A stretch of 39,864 nucleotides of DNA from Thermoproteota archaeon. Its GTDB lineage: Archaea; Korarchaeota; Korarchaeia; Korarchaeales; Korarchaeaceae. The position numbers were made by a program, and so were the translations under genes. Under the pieces are notes generated by a model. That model made no database searches and had not been told where the DNA came from. It worked only from the letters and a program-made list of their open reading frames with translations. The stretch is from NCBI GenBank assembly GCA_027491735.1, contig JAOZGP010000018.1, forward strand, positions 1 through 39,864, in the 5' to 3' direction. Below are positions 1-29,167 of the stretch, in pieces (the stretch's first letter is position 1; each line of letters starts with the position of its first letter).

Positions 1-977
1 CTCCGGCTATACAGATGACAGGACACAAGGTGACCTGATTCCACCTCAATGAGCTTGGGTTTTTCCTCCCTGCAGATCTCCTTGGCATAGGGGCACCTAG
101 GGTGGAAGCGGCAACCTGGCGGTGGATATATTAGATTAGGTATTGTGCCTGGTATTGGTTCTAACCTGAGCTCATGTTTTCTCTTTGCTATGTGAGGCAC
201 GGCCTTGAGCAGGCCGTTCGTGTAGGGGTGCATGGGTTTTCTGAACAAGGTGAACACATCGGTTATCTCCACGATGTTCCCTGCATACATTACTGCAACC
301 CTATCGCACATCTCAGCAACTAGGCCTAGGTTGTGGGTCACTAAGATCATAGTGAGCCCTCTACTTCTCTGAAGATTCCTCAAAAGATCCATTATCTGGG
401 CTTGTATCGTCACGTCAACAGCAGTTGTAGGCTCATCAGCTATGATCAGATCTGGCTCGCAGGCGAGTGATGTGGAGATTACTGCTCTCTGTCTCATTCC
501 ACCGCTCAGCTCATGAGGATACATGTTCGCTGTTCTCTCAGGTGAGGGCATCCTAGCTTCCCTCAATGCCTTTATAGCATGTTTTATCGCCTCCTTAAAC
601 GAGTTAACTAATTTGTGATGAAAGACAGGCTCTGCAACTTGATATCCTATCTTGAATATCGGATCCAAGGCCGTCATCGGCTCCTGAACTATGTAGCTTA
701 TCTTTTTTCCTCTTATCTCTCTCATCTCTTCCTCGGAGAGCTCTAGTAGATTCCTACCCTCAAAGAATATCCTCCCGGAGACTATTCTACCAGGGGGTGG
801 GATCAGCCTCAGTATGGACCTCATGGTGACGCTTTTTCCACAGCCTGTTTCGCCCACAAGACCAAAGCACTCTCCCCTAAGGACTGCGAAGGACACTCCC
901 TCTATCGCTTTGACCACTCCGGCGTATGTATAAAAGCGAACGATAAGGTCCTCAACCCTGAGAATCTCCTCAGACAT
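1..977 (-). CDS. oppD: Peptide/oligosaccharide ABC transporter ATP-binding protein, OppD/DppD type (3' end outside window)
   Basis: This is the cytoplasmic ATPase that would power the permeases encoded just upstream. The reading frame is open from an ATG at 977 to the window edge, so the C-terminus is missing. It shows the Walker A motif GETGCGKS, the ABC signature LSGGMRQR, Walker B LIIADEPT, and near the cut end the Cys-rich CRFHPRCPYA segment typical of the OppD/OppF C-terminal extension. The ATG overlaps the stop of the oppC-like gene by 8 nt, so the two are probably translationally coupled. Peptides and oligosaccharides are both possible substrates, because family 5 transporters in hyperthermophilic archaea often carry sugars. 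An oppF-like partner would be expected just outside the window. Confidence 0.93.
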   Translation of the reverse strand, partial: MSEEILRVEDLIVRFYTYAGVVKAIEGVSFAVLRGECFGLVGETGCGKSVTMRSILRLIPPPGRIVSGRIFFEGRNLLELSEEEMREIRGKKISYIVQEPMTALDPIFKIGYQVAEPVFHHKLVNSFKEAIKHAIKALREARMPSPERTANMYPHELSGGMRQRAVISTSLACEPDLIIADEPTTAVDVTIQAQIMDLLRNLQRSRGLTMILVTHNLGLVAEMCDRVAVMYAGNIVEITDVFTLFRKPMHPYTNGLLKAVPHIAKRKHELRLEPIPGTIPNLIYPPPGCRFHPRCPYAKEICREEKPKLIEVESGHLVSCHLYSR

Positions 978-2013
978 TTTGCTCCTCTCCCCTTCTCTCT
1001 ACCTTTTTCTTTTTCTTTTTCTCCTTCATTTTGAACTCAAGTCTGCGCCTGTATCTTGGATCGAGAACATCCCTGAGACCATCTCCTAGCAGATTAAACC
1101 CAAGAGCCCAGATGAACAATATGAATCCTGGTATCAGGGAATACCACCACTTCTGTGGTAGAAAGTTGAGCCCGTCGTAGACCAACCTGCCAAGCTCTGG
1201 AGTCGGTGGTTGAGCACCCAGACCTATGAAAGACAGACCAGCGCCCATCAGAACAACACCTGCCATGTCCATGGTCAGGTATATTATCACAGGAGTCAAC
1301 ACATTCGGTGCTATGTGCTTTATTATTATCTTAAAGTCGCTCATGCCTGCTGCCCTAGCTGCCTCGACGTAGAGGTTCTCTCTCACGCTCAGCACCTGTC
1401 CCCTTATCAGCCTGACATATCCTGGCCACCAGACAACGATCATTGCTATTATTGCTGACTCCATACCGGCTCCCAGGGACGCCGCCAATGCCATCGCTAA
1501 TATCAGTGAAGGAAAGGCAAAGAAGATATCAGTTACCCTGGATATAAGCTCATCCACTTTACCTCCGTAGTACCCAGCCACGAGTCCAAGTATTATTCCC
1601 AAGGGGACACCTAAGGTTATGACGGTAACTGCATACGCTAGAGATATCTGTAGTCCCAGCATACACCTAGCGAACATGTCTCTTCCGAACTCATCTGTAC
1701 CAAACCAGTGTCTCCACGACGGTGGCTGGAGGAGATCCATGCTGTAGTCGAAAGCATTAAACTCAGGTGTCTCTTTTATCATCTTGTGGACAGAAAGGAA
1801 GTTCATCAACTGCTCGGTACCTGACAGAACCTGTGGTGAGAAAAGGGCAAACACCATCATGAAGACCACTATGATCAGGCCTGCGACCGATATAGGTGAT
1901 CTCTTAAAGGCGTACCACATCAGTCCATATTCCTTCAGCTTGCTCTCGTTCTTCTCCTTCCAACTCTGGTATTTCCTCCTGAGAGGCCTGGGTAGTAGTC
2001 TGGAAAGACTCAT
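970..2013 (-). CDS. oppC: Peptide-type ABC transporter permease, OppC/DppC family
   Basis: Membrane subunit of a family 5 (oligopeptide/dipeptide type) importer, 347 aa. It has a short cytoplasmic N-terminus, a first membrane helix near residues 40-60, a periplasm-facing loop ending in the family motif HWFGTDEFGRDMFAR, then five further helices. The ATPase-docking EAA loop reads EAARAAGMSDFKIIIKHIAPN. The C-terminus ends in the family motif GDGLRDVLDPRYR plus an unusual lysine-rich tail with a run of six Lys. The gene starts 16 nt after the oppB-like stop and its end overlaps oppD, so the three genes form an operon. Confidence 0.94.
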   Translation of the reverse strand: MSLSRLLPRPLRRKYQSWKEKNESKLKEYGLMWYAFKRSPISVAGLIIVVFMMVFALFSPQVLSGTEQLMNFLSVHKMIKETPEFNAFDYSMDLLQPPSWRHWFGTDEFGRDMFARCMLGLQISLAYAVTVITLGVPLGIILGLVAGYYGGKVDELISRVTDIFFAFPSLILAMALAASLGAGMESAIIAMIVVWWPGYVRLIRGQVLSVRENLYVEAARAAGMSDFKIIIKHIAPNVLTPVIIYLTMDMAGVVLMGAGLSFIGLGAQPPTPELGRLVYDGLNFLPQKWWYSLIPGFILFIWALGFNLLGDGLRDVLDPRYRRRLEFKMKEKKKKKKVERRGEEQNV

Positions 2014-2029
2014 TCTTGAAGCCCCCCTC

Positions 2030-3058
2030 TCAAAGCCTGACGCGTGGATCTAGGAAAGCGTACAGTAGATCCGCTATCAGGTTCATGATAAGGAAGGTAA
2101 GACCCATGAGGAAGGTCACCCCCATTATCGACGGGAAATCTAGCGCATAGGTGCACTGTAAACTGTACCTGCCGACTCCAGGCAGCGCAAATATCGTCTC
2201 AGTTATCACTGCCCCTCCCAAGAGACCTCCAAATTGAAGTGCAGCCACGGTGACTATGGGTATAAGAGCGTTCTTCATGGCGTGTTTCCAGACAATTATC
2301 CTCTCTGGTAAGCCCTTCATCATACAGAAATCTATGAAGTCTGAACCAAGGGTATCCAAGAGACTTCCACGCATGAGTCTAGCTATCACGGCCATGCCCG
2401 GTATGGATAGAGTCCAGGCGGGAAGAATAAAGTGTTTTAAATTATCTGTAAATGAGGAGAAATCACCGCACATCAGGGAGTCTAGTAAATAAAGACCTGT
2501 CACATGGCATTTTGGCTCTTTGCCTAAACCAAATCCTGGTAGCAGGTTGGTGTAGTAGAAAAAGATGTACTGCAGCACTATCGCCAAGAGGAAGTACGGC
2601 ATGGAGTATCCTATTATCGCTATTACCCTTATGGTCTGATCGATGATTGTGTTTTGCTTGGCAGCAGCTATAACTCCCAGGACTATGCCCTGAACTATTA
2701 TGAGGATCTCTCCCAGTATCGCCAGCTGTATTGTAACAGGATAATATGTCTCTAAATCTCGTATCACAGGTCTATTTGTCATCATTGATGTGCCCCAATG
2801 CCCCGTTAGGAGATCTCTTGTGTAGAGGAAAAATTGCTCCCATGGGGGCTTATCCAAGTAGAATTCTTTTTTAAGAACCTCTAAGACCTGTGGATTTACC
2901 TTATGAAAGAATGCATTTTTAGCGGGCATCGCTGGCACTACGTGGGAGACAATGAAGGTTATCAGAATCACGCCTATCAGCGTGGGTATCCAAGTGGCGA
3001 GTCTTCTCATTAGATAGTATTTGAATTCCGACATCAGCCTATCAGGAGGGGGGTTCAT
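2030..3058 (-). CDS. oppB: Peptide-type ABC transporter permease, OppB/DppB family
   Basis: Second membrane subunit of the importer, up to 342 aa. Helix 1 is followed by a long outward loop containing the family motif YLDKPPWEQFF, then five helices. The conserved ATPase-contact segment is KGLPERIIVWKHAMKNALIPIVT, and the end reads LLYAFLDPRVRL, which is typical of OppB. The first ATG at 3058 gives 342 aa. An internal ATG eight codons later (MSEFKYYLMRRL) looks more like the usual OppB start and may be the real one. A T-rich stretch separates it from the binding-protein gene upstream, so the binding protein can be made in excess. Confidence 0.94.
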   Translation of the reverse strand: MNPPPDRLMSEFKYYLMRRLATWIPTLIGVILITFIVSHVVPAMPAKNAFFHKVNPQVLEVLKKEFYLDKPPWEQFFLYTRDLLTGHWGTSMMTNRPVIRDLETYYPVTIQLAILGEILIIVQGIVLGVIAAAKQNTIIDQTIRVIAIIGYSMPYFLLAIVLQYIFFYYTNLLPGFGLGKEPKCHVTGLYLLDSLMCGDFSSFTDNLKHFILPAWTLSIPGMAVIARLMRGSLLDTLGSDFIDFCMMKGLPERIIVWKHAMKNALIPIVTVAALQFGGLLGGAVITETIFALPGVGRYSLQCTYALDFPSIMGVTFLMGLTFLIMNLIADLLYAFLDPRVRL

Positions 3059-3189
3059 AAAAAATCTTTATTCTTTCTAAAGGAATTCTAGGAGTTGGAG
3101 AACTGACTTTTCTCCGCTCACCGCTAAGCACATTCCCTTGTCCAGATTAATTAGCAGTTCCCCACACGAGATCTTCTAGCTAAATTGAC

Positions 3190-21094: not shown

Positions 21095-21156
21095 CTTTAT
21101 AGTTAGTTCGAAAAAGGGTTTTTAATGAACCTTGGGGCACAGTTCCGGTGGACGAA

Positions 21157-22140
21157 ATGAGAAGTTCTCTTGTTATGGCCGGGCTTCTTGCAGTCTTTCT
21201 CCTCTCTGTAGCGGTTCCCGTAACTGCCCAAGAAAAACCTCTGGTTGTAGTCTTTGCCAAGGGAATGCTGAAACCGGACAACTCACTGAAGTGGATGGAG
21301 GGAAACATAACTCAGGTGAAATGGAAGATCTACACTGACACGATAACATACGACGAAATAAAGGACGCATCCATGCTGATACTGGTGCAGGTCGACACCT
21401 CGCAGAAGTACACGTCGGATGAGATAGCAGTCATAAAGAAGTGGTTCGACCAGGGAGGGAAGACCATATGGGTTACCGGTGATTCCGACTACAAGGGAGG
21501 AGATTACCTGAGGATAGGGCCTGCAAACGATGTCCTACAGGCTGTGGGAAGTGTGCTGAGGATAGATAACTGCGAGGCCACAGATCCTCAGTCCAATGCT
21601 GGTAAGCCATACCGTGTGATAGGAATGATCTCTCCAGATCCCGCCCTAAAGTTCCTCGCGGATGGTGTGAGTCATGGCGTGTTGTTCCATGGACCCGGGC
21701 CTGTGGTCGCTTACGTCAATGGCCAGTGGAACAATTTGGTCGAATCCGCTCCTCAGAATGTCTACAGGATTGCTTGGACCAGCGATCAAGGAGCTGTTGC
21801 CGAGTTCGTCAAACCTCTACCTAAGGCGTTCGACGTGAGCTACAGAGGCAAGATGGTGCTCATGGCAGCTGAGATCATGTCCAACGGCGGCATAGTTATA
21901 GCCAGTGGTGAAGCACCTTTTGACCACTACAGAGGGATGTGGACCCCTGAATATCACGATAAACCACTATCAGGTCCTCAGTTTGTTACTAACACGGTTC
22001 TCTGGGGAGTTGGCCTCAAAGGATCTAAGCCATCTGCAGGAGGACCCTCTGCTGGACTGAGTCCTGTCTGGATAGCCGTTATAGTGATAGTCATAATACT
22101 GATAATCATAGCTGCCTTCGCCGCCACCAAGAAGAAGTAA
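21157..22140 (+). CDS. Secreted, C-terminally anchored protein with a glutamine-amidotransferase-like (Rossmann) domain
   Basis: 327 aa. The signal peptide ends at VPVTAQE; the C-terminus has a single helix (VWIAVIVIVIILIIIAAF) and a Lys-rich tail after a Gly/Pro/Ser linker. Between them is an alpha/beta domain: PLVVVFAKG, ASMLILVQVDTSQKYTSDEI, KKWFDQGGKTIWVTGDSDY. This resembles class I amidotransferase-like folds of the DUF4350 sort, without an obvious catalytic Cys-His pair. It is transcribed away from the ABC operon across a 110-bp gap, so a role in cell-surface uptake is possible. ATG 21157 is preceded by GGTGGA; GTG 21148 is less likely. Confidence 0.75.
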   Translation: MRSSLVMAGLLAVFLLSVAVPVTAQEKPLVVVFAKGMLKPDNSLKWMEGNITQVKWKIYTDTITYDEIKDASMLILVQVDTSQKYTSDEIAVIKKWFDQGGKTIWVTGDSDYKGGDYLRIGPANDVLQAVGSVLRIDNCEATDPQSNAGKPYRVIGMISPDPALKFLADGVSHGVLFHGPGPVVAYVNGQWNNLVESAPQNVYRIAWTSDQGAVAEFVKPLPKAFDVSYRGKMVLMAAEIMSNGGIVIASGEAPFDHYRGMWTPEYHDKPLSGPQFVTNTVLWGVGLKGSKPSAGGPSAGLSPVWIAVIVIVIILIIIAAFAATKKK

Positions 22141-24666: not shown

Positions 24667-26208
24667 ATGGCCTCCGAGTATGTTGTAGCGACCCTAACCA
24701 ATGCTGGCATGGACGAAAGGACTGCTAGGGTGATCTTAGAGAGAATTCGGAGATCTGGTCTCCTTGAGGATTTGGAGAACCTGTACGATGTGATAGGGCG
24801 AGCTAAGGAGTCCTTGGAGGAGGTGAAGGACAAAGATCCGACCACATACACTCGCCTTAGGGCGAGAGCTGAGGCGGCGGAGGGAAGGTTCAGAGAACTG
24901 ATAGAGGATATAGGCAGGGATCCAGCGTTCTCGAAACTAGTCCGCCTTTCATTCCGGGTCGAGATACCTCTTCGCGTTCTCATTCCTTATAGAAATAAAG
25001 TAATAGAGATAAAAGATATATTTGAGGAGATATTATCTGAGTCGAGAGGAGCGGGTCCCCTATCCAGAGCCTCAATGGGAGTCTCCAAGGAAAGCTTATC
25101 GGAGATCAAAGGCGAGGTGGATAAAATAAAAGAGCAGATATCTCGAATGGAGGGTGAAGGCGTCTCTCTAGATTTCATTAAGGCTGACGTAAAGCGAGCT
25201 GAAGACCTCCTGTCTCGAGCTGATGAGACTGCCTCCATCGCGGCCATAAAAATGGTTCAGAAATCGCTGGATCAGATAAAAGGGGACATGAACAAGATAA
25301 GCGAGATAATAGCTAGAAAGGAGAGGATAATATCTGTTCTCTCCAAGGTTAAGAAGGTATGTCAGTACCTGGACAGGCTGACCTCCTCGGACATATACGA
25401 GGCCTTCTATGAGAGACTCTCCTCTCATATCTCAGCTGTAGAGAACGAACTGACATCGAGAGAGGATGTAGGCAGGCTGTTAGATGATACAAAAAGATTG
25501 GAAAATTACGTGAACACGCTTCTTGATCTGTATCCATTCATGGACCGCGGCATGAATCCGTTCGATGCACTCTCCTTGATGGAGGAGGGTCTCGATGTTC
25601 TGGATGCCATGAAGGCCGTCATGGCCGACGAGGGCCTGAGCAAGGAGGACAAGGCAGCCAGATGTCTGGACCTCATGAGGGGGAGGATAGCAAATGTGGA
25701 CGAGTTCATGGAGATAGTCTCTGAGGCCAGGAGGTTGTATCCATTCTGGAAATCCTACATAATGAGCCTCCTCAAGGAGAAGGGTTACATGGTCCATGTG
25801 GATGACCTGGAGAAGATACCAAAGAAGTGGAGGGGACTCATAATGAGAATGGTGTCCTCCGAGGATGACGACATAGTGATGGAGGGAGATCTCGTAATTC
25901 ACAAAAGAGCGATCTCTGATCAGGTGCTCGAGGAGGAGTTGAACAGCATTTATGAGGACGCCAGGATCCTTCGGGATGTGTTCGAGAAGCTGCTGAGGCT
26001 TGAAATTCCGTCTGAGGGTTTCATCAGTGATATCAACGACATCATCGCTGAGGTAGGGAGAATGAAGCGCGATCCGGATGAAGCATCCTTTCTTGAGGTG
26101 TACTCGATTAAAAAGAGGATCAATGAGATAAAAGACCATCTGAAATCACTGTTTTCTCAGCTGACATCTGAGGAGGCTGAGGAGGGAACGAATAAAGGTG
26201 CTGAATAA
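24667..26208 (+). CDS. Large helical/coiled-coil protein, probable partner of the FtsZ-like GTPase
   Basis: 513 aa, not recognised as any known family. It is almost entirely helical and highly charged, with no signal peptide or membrane segment. Residues about 40-90 and 145-225 look like coiled coil (EIKGEVDKIKEQISRME). A more globular part near 360-420 (FWKSYIMSLLKEKGY, then a MEGDLVIHK hairpin) could be a winged helix. A final coiled coil ends in an acidic tail (TSEEAEEGTNKGAE). It has its own TATA-like block (ATATTTTTTATCC) about 25-35 nt upstream. The FtsZ/tubulin-like gene follows after 45 bp, also with a TATA box. The adjacency suggests a filament-binding or adaptor protein; this is inference. 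Confidence 0.8.
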   Translation: MASEYVVATLTNAGMDERTARVILERIRRSGLLEDLENLYDVIGRAKESLEEVKDKDPTTYTRLRARAEAAEGRFRELIEDIGRDPAFSKLVRLSFRVEIPLRVLIPYRNKVIEIKDIFEEILSESRGAGPLSRASMGVSKESLSEIKGEVDKIKEQISRMEGEGVSLDFIKADVKRAEDLLSRADETASIAAIKMVQKSLDQIKGDMNKISEIIARKERIISVLSKVKKVCQYLDRLTSSDIYEAFYERLSSHISAVENELTSREDVGRLLDDTKRLENYVNTLLDLYPFMDRGMNPFDALSLMEEGLDVLDAMKAVMADEGLSKEDKAARCLDLMRGRIANVDEFMEIVSEARRLYPFWKSYIMSLLKEKGYMVHVDDLEKIPKKWRGLIMRMVSSEDDDIVMEGDLVIHKRAISDQVLEEELNSIYEDARILRDVFEKLLRLEIPSEGFISDINDIIAEVGRMKRDPDEASFLEVYSIKKRINEIKDHLKSLFSQLTSEEAEEGTNKGAE

Positions 26209-26219
26209 TATTTAAAATA
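26206..26219 (+). promoter_or_regulatory. TATA box of the FtsZ/tubulin-like gene
   Basis: AATATTTAAAATAG lies 35-48 nt before the ATG at 26254, overlapping the stop of the preceding gene. It would allow the GTPase to be transcribed separately from the coiled-coil gene. Confidence 0.45.
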
Positions 26220-26253
26220 GTCCTAACGCTGGGTCCTACAAGGTGTTCCCCCG

Positions 26254-27453
26254 ATGAAGTGGTACGGGGTGGGTCTCGGTGGAGCTGGCGGTAACATAAT
26301 GGACACAACTTACGGATTGATGAGGGAGAACTTCATCGGTGTTTCTGTGTTCAACACCGCTGAACCAGATAAGGCAAAACTGAGCTTCCTCAAGGAGAGG
26401 TTTTTCCTCTTCGGGGATTTCGGGGGGGCTGGTGTCGGGTCAAAGTGGAAGGACTCCAGGGATGCCATAACTCAGGAGAAGTGGAAGAAGGTTTTTGTGG
26501 AGAACGTGGTCTCCGATGGAATAGCAGAAAGCCAGGCGGTTCTGCTCGCTTCCTCAACCGGAGGGGGTACCGGAAGTGGTGCCATACCAGTTGTTTCCGG
26601 TTATATTAAGGAGATCCTCTCCTCCGGCGGCAGGATTGTACAGCCCATGATAGCTGGCGTAGTTCTTCCCTTCAGGTATCCGAAGGAGACCATGAGATTC
26701 AGCTACAACACAGCCATCTGCTTGGCTAACCTTCTGGATAAGGTGGACGCCATCTTGATCGCGGACAACGATTATCTCATGGAGAGGATAACTCAGGAGA
26801 CGCCCAACATAAGCGACGTCGAGCTTTTAGACAAGATAAATGTGAGCATCGCTGAGGCCTTGAGAGTTCTCTCCTCAGCATCTGAAACTCCAATAAAGGG
26901 TGGATTTAAGACAACCTTTGATTCTCAAGACCTCAAGAGCTCGCTGAGCATGTTCGAGGCTGCTCTCGTGGTTCCATATTACTTCAGAACCAGGGTGGAT
27001 GTGCTGGGCGGCAGTCTGGAGTTCCTGGTGGAGGCAGCTCTTGAGGCGGGAGGTCTCGCGAAAGCAGATCCGAGCACAGCTATCAAGGCTGCCTTCGTCG
27101 TGAAAGGTCCTGAGACCTTGGTCACTGTGGACAACATCTTCCAAGCCAAGAGGGTACTTGTGGAGAGGATAGCTGGAGTTGACGTCCGGGAGGGAATTGC
27201 AGCGACTCCTCCGGACTCCAAGTATATAGAAATAGCCGTGCTGCTTGTGGAGCCCAAGATAGACAGGATAGATGAGGTAGCTGAGCAGGCCAGAGTATAC
27301 TACGACCTGTTTGAGGATGACCTGACAGCGAAGGAGAGCACCCCCCGAGAGGAGTTCGAGTCGTACCTCAAGAGGCTCGAGGATCACATGAACAGGGTGG
27401 ACACTAAGAGAGAGCAGCTAGTCAGGGTTAAGGGGACGATGCAGTCACCATAG
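26254..27453 (+). CDS. FtsZ/tubulin-superfamily GTPase, divergent (not canonical FtsZ)
   Basis: 399 aa. The tubulin-superfamily motifs are in order and intact: T1 GLGGAGGN (residues 7-14), T4 GGGTGSG (103-109), T5/T6 region VVLPFRYP (136-143) and the base-contacting IADNDYL (169-175), and T7 FDSQDLKSS (222-230), whose two Asp match the FtsZ NxDFxD residues that trigger GTP hydrolysis in the neighbouring subunit. A C-terminal domain (FVVKGPETL onward) and a charged helical tail follow. The FtsZ C-terminal peptide is absent. It may be a CetZ relative, one of the FtsZ-like groups, or a new branch. It should polymerise with GTP; its task (shape, division, transport) is unknown. Neighbours are the coiled-coil gene upstream and an eIF2B-like gene 21 nt downstream. 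Confidence 0.9.
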   Translation: MKWYGVGLGGAGGNIMDTTYGLMRENFIGVSVFNTAEPDKAKLSFLKERFFLFGDFGGAGVGSKWKDSRDAITQEKWKKVFVENVVSDGIAESQAVLLASSTGGGTGSGAIPVVSGYIKEILSSGGRIVQPMIAGVVLPFRYPKETMRFSYNTAICLANLLDKVDAILIADNDYLMERITQETPNISDVELLDKINVSIAEALRVLSSASETPIKGGFKTTFDSQDLKSSLSMFEAALVVPYYFRTRVDVLGGSLEFLVEAALEAGGLAKADPSTAIKAAFVVKGPETLVTVDNIFQAKRVLVERIAGVDVREGIAATPPDSKYIEIAVLLVEPKIDRIDEVAEQARVYYDLFEDDLTAKESTPREEFESYLKRLEDHMNRVDTKREQLVRVKGTMQSP

Positions 27454-27474: not shown

Positions 27475-28242
27475 TTGTCTACGGATGAGCTCAGAACTCT
27501 TCTGGAGGACAAGACCTCAGGAGCCTCTCGGATAGCTCTAAGGGCTGCTAAGGTCCTCTCATTGCTCGAGATGGATGAGGCGCTGAAGTGGGCCGAGATG
27601 CTTCGCAGAGCCCATCCGGAGATGATCCCTCTTCAGAACCTCAACTTGGTCCTCAGGTCATCTGGACTTGATGGTCTGAGGAGATTTCTCAATGCTCTGG
27701 AGACCGGAAGGGATTTGATACCTAGAAAGGCAACACTTCTCCTAGAGAAGCTTGGAGTAAGTCGTTTATCCACAATGAGCTGGTCTTCCACAGTTTTCGA
27801 GTGCATTTTGGCACTCCAACAGAGAGGCCTGCTGGACGACGTGCTCATAGGGGAATCTCTCCCGGGAGGGGAGGGCCACAGGACCTCAAAGCTTCTGTCT
27901 GAACGTGGAATCATCACGAGGGTGGTGCCCGACGCTCTTCTCCCGTGGTCATCGGTCTGTGAGAGAAGAGGAGTTCTGGTCGGAGCTGACGCCATCTACT
28001 CGGATGGAACCGTAGTCAACAAGGTGGGAACCATGCCCCTCGCCTTATCCTGTAAATATCATGACCTTCCGGTGATCGTCGTCTCAGATACGACGAAGAT
28101 ATGGCATAATCCGATAAGCGAAGAGAGAAGGCTCGCGATCTCCGAGATGTTCGATGTAACACCTCCCGATGCCCTGTCAGCGATAGTAACTGAGAGGGGC
28201 GTCTTCAAACCTCCGTTCAGGTTTTCCTCCTTCTGGATCTGA
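27475..28242 (+). CDS. eIF2B-alpha / ribose-1,5-bisphosphate isomerase-family protein
   Basis: 255 aa, shorter than the usual 300-350 because the N-terminal helical domain is cut down. The family core is clear: GADAIYSDGTVVNKVGTMPLAL followed by HDLPVIVVSDTTKIW, the part that binds sugar-phosphate or nucleotide ligands in this superfamily. Members include archaeal aIF2B, R15P isomerase and MtnA. The catalytic Cys and Asp of the isomerases cannot be placed with confidence. Start TTG 27475, 21 nt after the FtsZ-like stop with GAGGGA before it, so the pair is an operon. The 3' end overlaps the convergent repair gene by 26 nt. Confidence 0.82.
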   Translation: MSTDELRTLLEDKTSGASRIALRAAKVLSLLEMDEALKWAEMLRRAHPEMIPLQNLNLVLRSSGLDGLRRFLNALETGRDLIPRKATLLLEKLGVSRLSTMSWSSTVFECILALQQRGLLDDVLIGESLPGGEGHRTSKLLSERGIITRVVPDALLPWSSVCERRGVLVGADAIYSDGTVVNKVGTMPLALSCKYHDLPVIVVSDTTKIWHNPISEERRLAISEMFDVTPPDALSAIVTERGVFKPPFRFSSFWI

Positions 28243-29167
28243 TCTCCGCTCTGATTCTAGCAGCCTCTCTCCTGGACTCTCTGTGAGCTATGACGAGGGG
28301 ATCAGGTTGCGGTCCTCTGAAGATGAAGTTCTCAGCTATCCTCCTGGAAGATTCCAGGCTGACTCTGTTTCCGGGAGACACAAAGATCTTCCTTCCCCTT
28401 CTGAGGACCCATCCCACATGGTCTCCATCCACGAGGATCCTGTCATCGATCACCCTTCCGACCAGGAGGGACTTAGCTACCCCTACCGATGGGACATCGA
28501 GAACTACCCCTAGGTGGCAGGCATCTCCAAACCTCTCCGGGTGTGCCAAGCCATGTCCATCGACGAAGAGGACGTCGAAGGAGCACCTCTTCACGACCAT
28601 GACGCACGGTCTCAACTCTCTGAAAGCTAAGAAGGTTGGTATATAGGGAAAGACAGGCTCGGTTCTGACAGTCTTGACCTCCACAACCTCCCCACTCCGG
28701 TTCATCACAGCGCAGGAGGCTACAGCTATCTCAGGGCAACCGTCAACATAGGAGACATCGACTCCCGCTGCCAGCTCGATCTGATCTGGATCCAGAGAGT
28801 CCTCGAGAGACATGAAGCTTCTCAGAACCCTTTGCGAGTTCCTAGCTCTCTTCAGCACAGGAACTATCCTGATGCCGATCTCGTCTGGTTTCACCAAGTG
28901 ATCCTCGGACACTCTCCCGCCTCTGATCTCCACGCCCTCCATCAGGAGAGGAAGCTTTGCCTCTCTTTGTATGGAGAGATCCTCCCTCACGACCTTGTAC
29001 CACTTCTCAAAACCGCAGAGCCTTAGTTTTCTCACACAACCAGCCAGGTACCTGGCGGCCCTTCTCCATCCAAGGAGCTCTGCCAGAGATCCGTAGGTTA
29101 TCACCTTTCCCTTTGGGAGCGAGTCGATCACCTGAGCTATGAGAATATCCACTCTGTTCATCTCCAC
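28217..29167 (-). CDS. Fusion of an alkyltransferase-like domain and endonuclease V, with altered active sites
   Basis: 316 aa. Residues 1-90 match the O6-alkylguanine alkyltransferase DNA-binding domain (VIDSLPKGKVITYGSLAELLG, RRAARYLAGCV), but where PCHRV should be it reads EKWYKVV (54-60): the Cys is Trp, as in alkyltransferase-like proteins, and Pro and His are also gone. Residues about 115-316 are endonuclease V: GVDVSY (Asp137), YIPTFLAFRE (Glu184), FVDGHGLAHPERFG (Asp203) and SVGVAKSLLVG. The fourth catalytic residue, His214 in Thermotoga maritima (SPGH), is Asn267 here (SPGNRVS). A fusion of an active alkyltransferase with EndoV is known from Ferroplasma; this one may flag lesions rather than reverse them. 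GTG start 29167 or ATG two codons later. Confidence 0.88.
   Translation of the reverse strand: MEMNRVDILIAQVIDSLPKGKVITYGSLAELLGWRRAARYLAGCVRKLRLCGFEKWYKVVREDLSIQREAKLPLLMEGVEIRGGRVSEDHLVKPDEIGIRIVPVLKRARNSQRVLRSFMSLEDSLDPDQIELAAGVDVSYVDGCPEIAVASCAVMNRSGEVVEVKTVRTEPVFPYIPTFLAFRELRPCVMVVKRCSFDVLFVDGHGLAHPERFGDACHLGVVLDVPSVGVAKSLLVGRVIDDRILVDGDHVGWVLRRGRKIFVSPGNRVSLESSRRIAENFIFRGPQPDPLVIAHRESRREAARIRAEIRSRRRKT

Follow-up and report, generated by a model that had tools for sequence, protein, structure and literature searches.

In FtsZ, tubulin and CetZ, GTP lies between subunits, and each subunit stimulates hydrolysis in the following one through its T7 loop. Many archaea divide using two FtsZ paralogs, and TubZ moves plasmids via TubR. 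Confident identification of CetZ has been described only in Euryarchaeota, and Thermococcales-type CetZ delimit the family (PMC9856176). FtsZ-like sequences of a non-canonical type, with no role assigned, were reported in Korarchaeia and other TACK groups, together with a Culexarchaeia clade positioned between FtsZ2 and CetZ (PMC9723716), so that the existence of such proteins in Korarchaeia is not new. In the open-access papers searched, we found no description of a position on the CetZ side combined with a CetZ-type C-terminal domain, of a restricted distribution or of a coiled-coil partner, as presented here for a gene on a korarchaeotal stretch of 39,864 nucleotides (the window; Table 1). 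Two canonical FtsZ genes are found on another contig of the same genome. Closeness to CetZ and the conserved pairing with a coiled-coil gene, besides these two FtsZ, suggest that this third, very divergent tubulin-family GTPase probably represents a non-division cytoskeleton in a lineage without a known CetZ.

Table 1. Features of the GTPase locus in the window (positions of the whole stretch).
Feature	Position	Strand	Basis
Coiled-coil-like, helix-rich protein CC, 513 aa	24667..26208	+	Synteny in four genera, heptad pattern
Most conserved box of the CC family, YPxWxxY ... IPxxWR	25735..25905	+	CC alignments
Gap between CC and GTPase, 45 bases, with TATA-box-like ATTTAAAATA	26209..26253	+	Sequence only
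CetZ-side tubulin-superfamily GTPase, 399 aa	26254..27453	+	ORF, Pfam, orthologs, dN/dS
T1 loop GLGGAGGN, residues 7-14	26272..26295	+	Translation, alignment of orthologs
T4 signature GGGTGSG, residues 103-109	26560..26580	+	Alignment of orthologs
IADNDYL (T6 region), residues 169-175	26758..26778	+	Alignment of orthologs
T7 loop FDSQDLKSS, residues 222-230, with Asp223 and Asp226	26917..26943	+	Alignment
Stretch matching Pfam CetZ_C	27061..27294	+	Pfam match; C-terminal half by profile-profile comparison
C-terminal extension YYxxxE..E.T..E.E..L...H, predicted helical	27295..27438	+	Alignment, comparison of C-termini

The gene is an uninterrupted, ATG-started ORF of 399 codons, and the four motifs listed by the preliminary description were all recovered in its translation, as were the FVEN, GYIKEILSSGGRIVQP and VLPFRYPKETMRF stretches that it had regarded as far from canonical FtsZ. 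T1, T4, T6 and T7 follow each other in the order that defines the tubulin/FtsZ superfamily, to which the protein hence belongs; The Pfam Tubulin score of 56 bits (E 8e-15; cut-off 33) is well above what chance would give, and the same model matched 6/6 aligned orthologs. In the ortholog alignment, T4 is kept throughout in the form GGGTG[SA]G, and D171 and N172 of IADNDYL are invariant within the family. The T7 sequence of the window, TTFDSQDL, retains both aspartates as had been noted, with Thr in place of the canonical FtsZ Asn (NxDxxD). The polymerisation motifs are intact, as described, in the window and in most of the orthologs examined, with D223/D226, T1 and T4 preserved, but not in the branch formed by G004 and G008, in which T7 reads LSAQSL with Ser at both Asp positions (SAQS) and T1 is altered to GIGSGGTR; GGGTGAG is retained there. 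The loss of the T7 aspartates suggests that hydrolysis is dispensable for part of the family. Together with the Asn to Thr exchange in the window, these changes would be in line with a protein acting mainly as a GTP-regulated scaffold or switch, without strong hydrolysis or polymerisation, which we consider unlikely given the intact D223/D226, T1 and T4 of the window protein and most of the examined orthologs.

Several lines of evidence place the GTPase next to CetZ. Its best match in the PDB was MtCetZ (3zid), followed by HvCetZ1 (4b46) and HvCetZ2 (CetZ E-values of 3e-7 to 2e-6), with AtubA and BtubA at 22-25 bits vs. 33 bits for CetZ; the trees contained no tubulins. A profile of the GTPase family assigned 74-135 bits to complete CetZs and at most 54 to FtsZs, with partial, divergent sequences scoring lower (HvCetZ2 54, MtCetZ 45 bits), and the NCBIfam FtsZ equivalog TIGR00065 reached only 36.9 bits vs. 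a cut-off of 295.2. In trees calculated under the C20 mixture model, the korarchaeal GTPases form one clade (100/100) with a long stem (1.6-1.8), which lies on the CetZ side of the split from FtsZ and adjoins CetZ from Halobacteriota and the G029 group. The best trees place this clade inside the boundary set by Thermococcales-type CetZ, with support of 96/87, and of 83/92 when the distant relatives L207 and L208 are added. A sister position, with GTPase and FtsZ as one clade, was rejected (p-AU 0.00045); branching just outside all CetZ was not rejected (p-AU 0.23). MtCetZ, which is partial and very divergent, fell on the FtsZ side in one tree and was excluded from the topology tests. The labels Thermococcales, Halobacteriota and Korarchaeum for genome groups were inferred from gene content and kinship.

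At 41 positions around the GTP pocket that discriminate CetZ from FtsZ, derived anew on our own sequences by the method of PMC9856176, the GTPase carries 8 CetZ residues, 7 FtsZ residues and 26 of neither type, compared to 20, 2 and 19 in Thermococcales CetZ. The protein has thus mostly not retained the CetZ residue signature, and because of the few CetZ-type residues we refer to it as a new branch on the CetZ side, not as a CetZ. Consequently, of the options left by the preliminary description (a CetZ or FtsZ-like relative, or a new branch), a deep new branch on the CetZ side and no textbook CetZ is what emerged. Its proposal that the protein stands outside the division FtsZ agrees with the rejected FtsZ clade and the TIGR00065 score; a firm placement within canonical FtsZ, named there as the contrary outcome, was looked for in the tree and not obtained. 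The GTPase is not FtsZ. An identity as FtsZl1 was rejected as well, based on the gene context and on a Pfam Tubulin_2 score of 21.5 bits, below the cut-off of 27.

The C-terminal region leads to the same placement. Pfam CetZ_C matched the window protein marginally (22.4 bits vs. a cut-off of 21.6) and was found in 5/6 orthologs at E<0.05, and profile-profile comparison of the C-terminal half gave 95-96% probability with three CetZ sets vs. 0.3-2.5% with FtsZ profiles. The GTPase has a CetZ-type C-terminal domain, and the absence of a match to the FtsZ profiles again sets it apart from division FtsZ. Beyond this domain, a conserved, charged extension (Y349, Y350, E354, E361, E367, E369 and H378 invariant) stands where FtsZ has its linker and C-terminal peptide. 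Its helical assignment derives from a low-confidence model, the AlphaFold2 monomer of the GTPase having a pLDDT of 40 (two-sequence input). ELGLDSL forms the C-terminus of the FtsZ of the window's genome (L002) and of the Methanodesulfokora ortholog of this FtsZ (L055); comparison of the C-termini revealed this SepF/FtsA-binding peptide in none of the GTPase orthologs, confirming its reported absence.

In principle, a third, fast-evolving FtsZ paralog could act as accessory protein at the division ring, as the GTPase shares its superfamily with FtsZ, and two FtsZ paralogs in division are common among archaea. We regard this as quite improbable, in view of the rejected FtsZ sisterhood, the C-terminal domain unlike that of FtsZ, the missing SepF-binding peptide and the presence of already two canonical FtsZ genes, by which division can be covered; moreover, the GTPase is absent from 16/16 Korarchaeum-type genomes, which nevertheless divide. 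With two FtsZ paralogs present and no SepF-binding end, the CetZ-side GTPase is unlikely to have a division role.

Searching 29 genomes of the phylum with a profile from six sequences yielded full-length orthologs in 8 genomes of four genera (G000-G004, G006-G008; 400-720 bits), the one of G008 being truncated at a contig end. The subsequent scores did not exceed 52 bits and were all FtsZ or FtsZ-like proteins; the same search gave no ortholog in the 16 Korarchaeum-type genomes (genus g4). Identity to the orthologs of the seven other genomes ranges from 34 to 70%, with 69-70% for the one of Ca. Methanodesulfokora washburnensis, whose locus equals that of G002; the window's genome and Ca. Methanodesulfokora belong to one genus, which includes G002. 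Comparison of G001 with G002 gave a dN/dS of about 0.05 (dN 0.048, dS 1.04), dS being saturated between the window and G002. The GTPase gene is real, intact and under strong purifying selection.

Outside the phylum, 300 genomes of another archaeal phylum contained only two further full-length relatives, L207 (93 bits) and L208 (80 bits), and a search of viral contigs returned none. Both fall on the CetZ side and carry a C-terminal extension ending in a winged-helix-like stretch, with a weak, sub-threshold match to the MCM winged helix in L208. Further tubulin-superfamily genes were observed along the way. Korarchaeum-type genomes without the GTPase, as well as G008, contain divergent FtsZ-like genes of small size (324-371 aa), several of them in tandem, which form a separate clade beside FtsZ (L059, 2591-7180; L058; L070). 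In the G029 group (L099-L116, about 976-3144), the gene right behind CetZ encodes another, very divergent member of the tubulin superfamily, which forms its own clade and is kept in many genomes. Finally, L056 (234-1395) and L021 (813-2031), from G002 and G018, contain tubulin-superfamily members on an own long branch outside all groups.

CC is encoded directly upstream in the same orientation, separated from the GTPase gene by 45 bases. A TATA-box-like ATTTAAAATA in this gap may provide the GTPase gene with its own promoter. In CC, 16.5% of windows exceed the 99% level of shuffled sequences for the heptad pattern (expected 1%), and the protein has neither a membrane helix nor a Pfam family above cut-off. 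Its conserved box found no significant match in PDB or Pfam, and AlphaFold2 modelled the isolated box with a pLDDT of 57. A winged helix, which the box resembles by eye, was supported neither by Pfam nor by PDB-profile searches or hhalign; TubR-like DNA binding was therefore dropped as a claim.

The order CC-GTPase on one strand recurs in four genera (window, G003, G006, G007 and G004), with gaps from about 60 bases down to -4 (a 4-base overlap in G004) and, in G006, one additional coiled-coil gene in between. This pairing holds although GTPase identity drops to 34%, which makes CC a likely adaptor. Within the window's genus, the GTPase lies away from CC in 2/3 genomes (G001, G002), whose CC neighbourhood otherwise resembles that of the window (ArgS and EndoV, in G002 also thymidine kinase). 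Regarding EndoV, the window gene at 28217-29167 encodes an O6-methylguanine-DNA-methyltransferase-type DNA-binding domain with Endonuclease V fused behind it, and L143 and L144 contain ORFs resembling this fusion. In Methanodesulfokora and G001 (L023 7437-8849, L128 2501-3949), the GTPase gene is followed by one for a coiled-coil protein that looks secreted and anchored at its C-terminus and that matches EzrA below threshold. Another secreted-looking protein with a hydrophobic C-terminal anchor is encoded at 21148-22140 of the window (sub-threshold match to the IFT52 GIFT domain).

CC belongs to a paralogous family within korarchaea. Three Korarchaeum-type genomes (G012, G016 and G018) have a CC gene side by side with the gene of a Ras/Arf-like GTPase; G004 carries its second CC gene divergently to such a gene, with a Roadblock gene next to it, and genes looking pilus-type by eye are located near CC paralogs of G016 and G001. 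One family member (L149 5034-6614) appears glutaredoxin-like by eye in its first 80 residues.

A different context is found in G003, G006 and G007 (two genera), where SMC, ScpA-like, ScpB, CC and GTPase genes follow each other on one strand with tiny gaps, the ScpA-like gene being identified by a weak Rad21/Rec8 match. This order would suit a filament acting on the chromosome, which together with CC and SMC-ScpAB would form an organisation or segregation apparatus comparable to TubZ-TubR. However, SMC-ScpB is located away from the CC/GTPase loci in the window's genome and in G002, the examined Korarchaeum SMC-ScpAB loci have neither CC nor GTPase alongside, and the winged helix in CC was unsupported, so that we give this possibility little credence. 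A general link was likewise not borne out across Korarchaeia, where the SMC-ScpAB operon is widespread but only two genera combine it with CC-GTPase.

In our view, it is rather probable that the CetZ-side GTPase builds a GTP-driven, non-division filament with a T7-completed active site and CC as the likeliest adaptor; polymerisation, GTP hydrolysis, CC binding and cellular role we infer from sequence and gene context. GTP would be bound via T1-T6, and the subunits would join head to tail, as the intact T1, T4 and T7 of the window protein make likely, with D223 and D226 completing the GTPase site of the neighbour. Such a filament could serve cell shape, polarity or internal organisation instead of division and might be tethered by CC to the membrane, to surface structures or to the chromosome. 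We favour shape or polarity, since Ras/Arf-like GTPase and Roadblock genes are found together with CC paralogs, near pilus-type-looking genes; the SMC-ScpAB linkage in two genera makes chromosome organisation possible. As a rather speculative and on the whole doubtful extension, korarchaea could possess a cytoskeletal system in which the CetZ-side polymer shares its CC adaptor family, not described before, with Ras/Arf-like GTPases and their Roadblock partners and is coupled in some genera to SMC-ScpAB for chromosome organisation or movement. It would be unusual for a single adaptor family to occur beside both Ras/Arf-like and tubulin-like GTPases. If confirmed, the CetZ-side branch would imply that the CetZ-FtsZ split predates the divergence of the major archaeal lineages, or an old transfer, and the conserved coiled-coil partner offers a testable handle on the possible tethering of CetZ-like filaments.

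Compared to known systems, canonical archaeal FtsZ1 and FtsZ2 share the motif order T1, T4, T6, T7 with the GTPase but differ in C-terminal domain, phylogenetic position and the C-terminal peptide, which the GTPase lacks. To FtsZl1 (Tubulin_2, PMC2875224), there is the weak, below-cut-off Tubulin_2 similarity; the T7 region of the GTPase, however, is alignable, and vWA, OmpA and kinase genes, as in the FtsZl1 context, were absent among the GTPase neighbours scanned. The FtsZ-like proteins of Korarchaeia and Culexarchaeia (PMC9723716), compared by description only and possibly including this family, likewise have a TACK host and branch between the main groups; the GTPase family groups with CetZ in our trees, L207 and L208 forming a separate branch. 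Closest are the CetZ proteins, i.e., Haloferax CetZ1/2, Methanothrix CetZ (3zid) and Thermococcales CetZ, which have in common with the GTPase the core, the CetZ-type C-terminal domain, the co-occurrence with two FtsZ paralogs and the lack of an FtsZ C-terminal peptide. The GTPase differs from them by an identity of 24-30% (profile alignment), its long stem and few discriminating residues (8/41), an own C-terminal extension predicted to be helical, its korarchaeal host and a coiled-coil protein in place of pilus genes in its neighbourhood.
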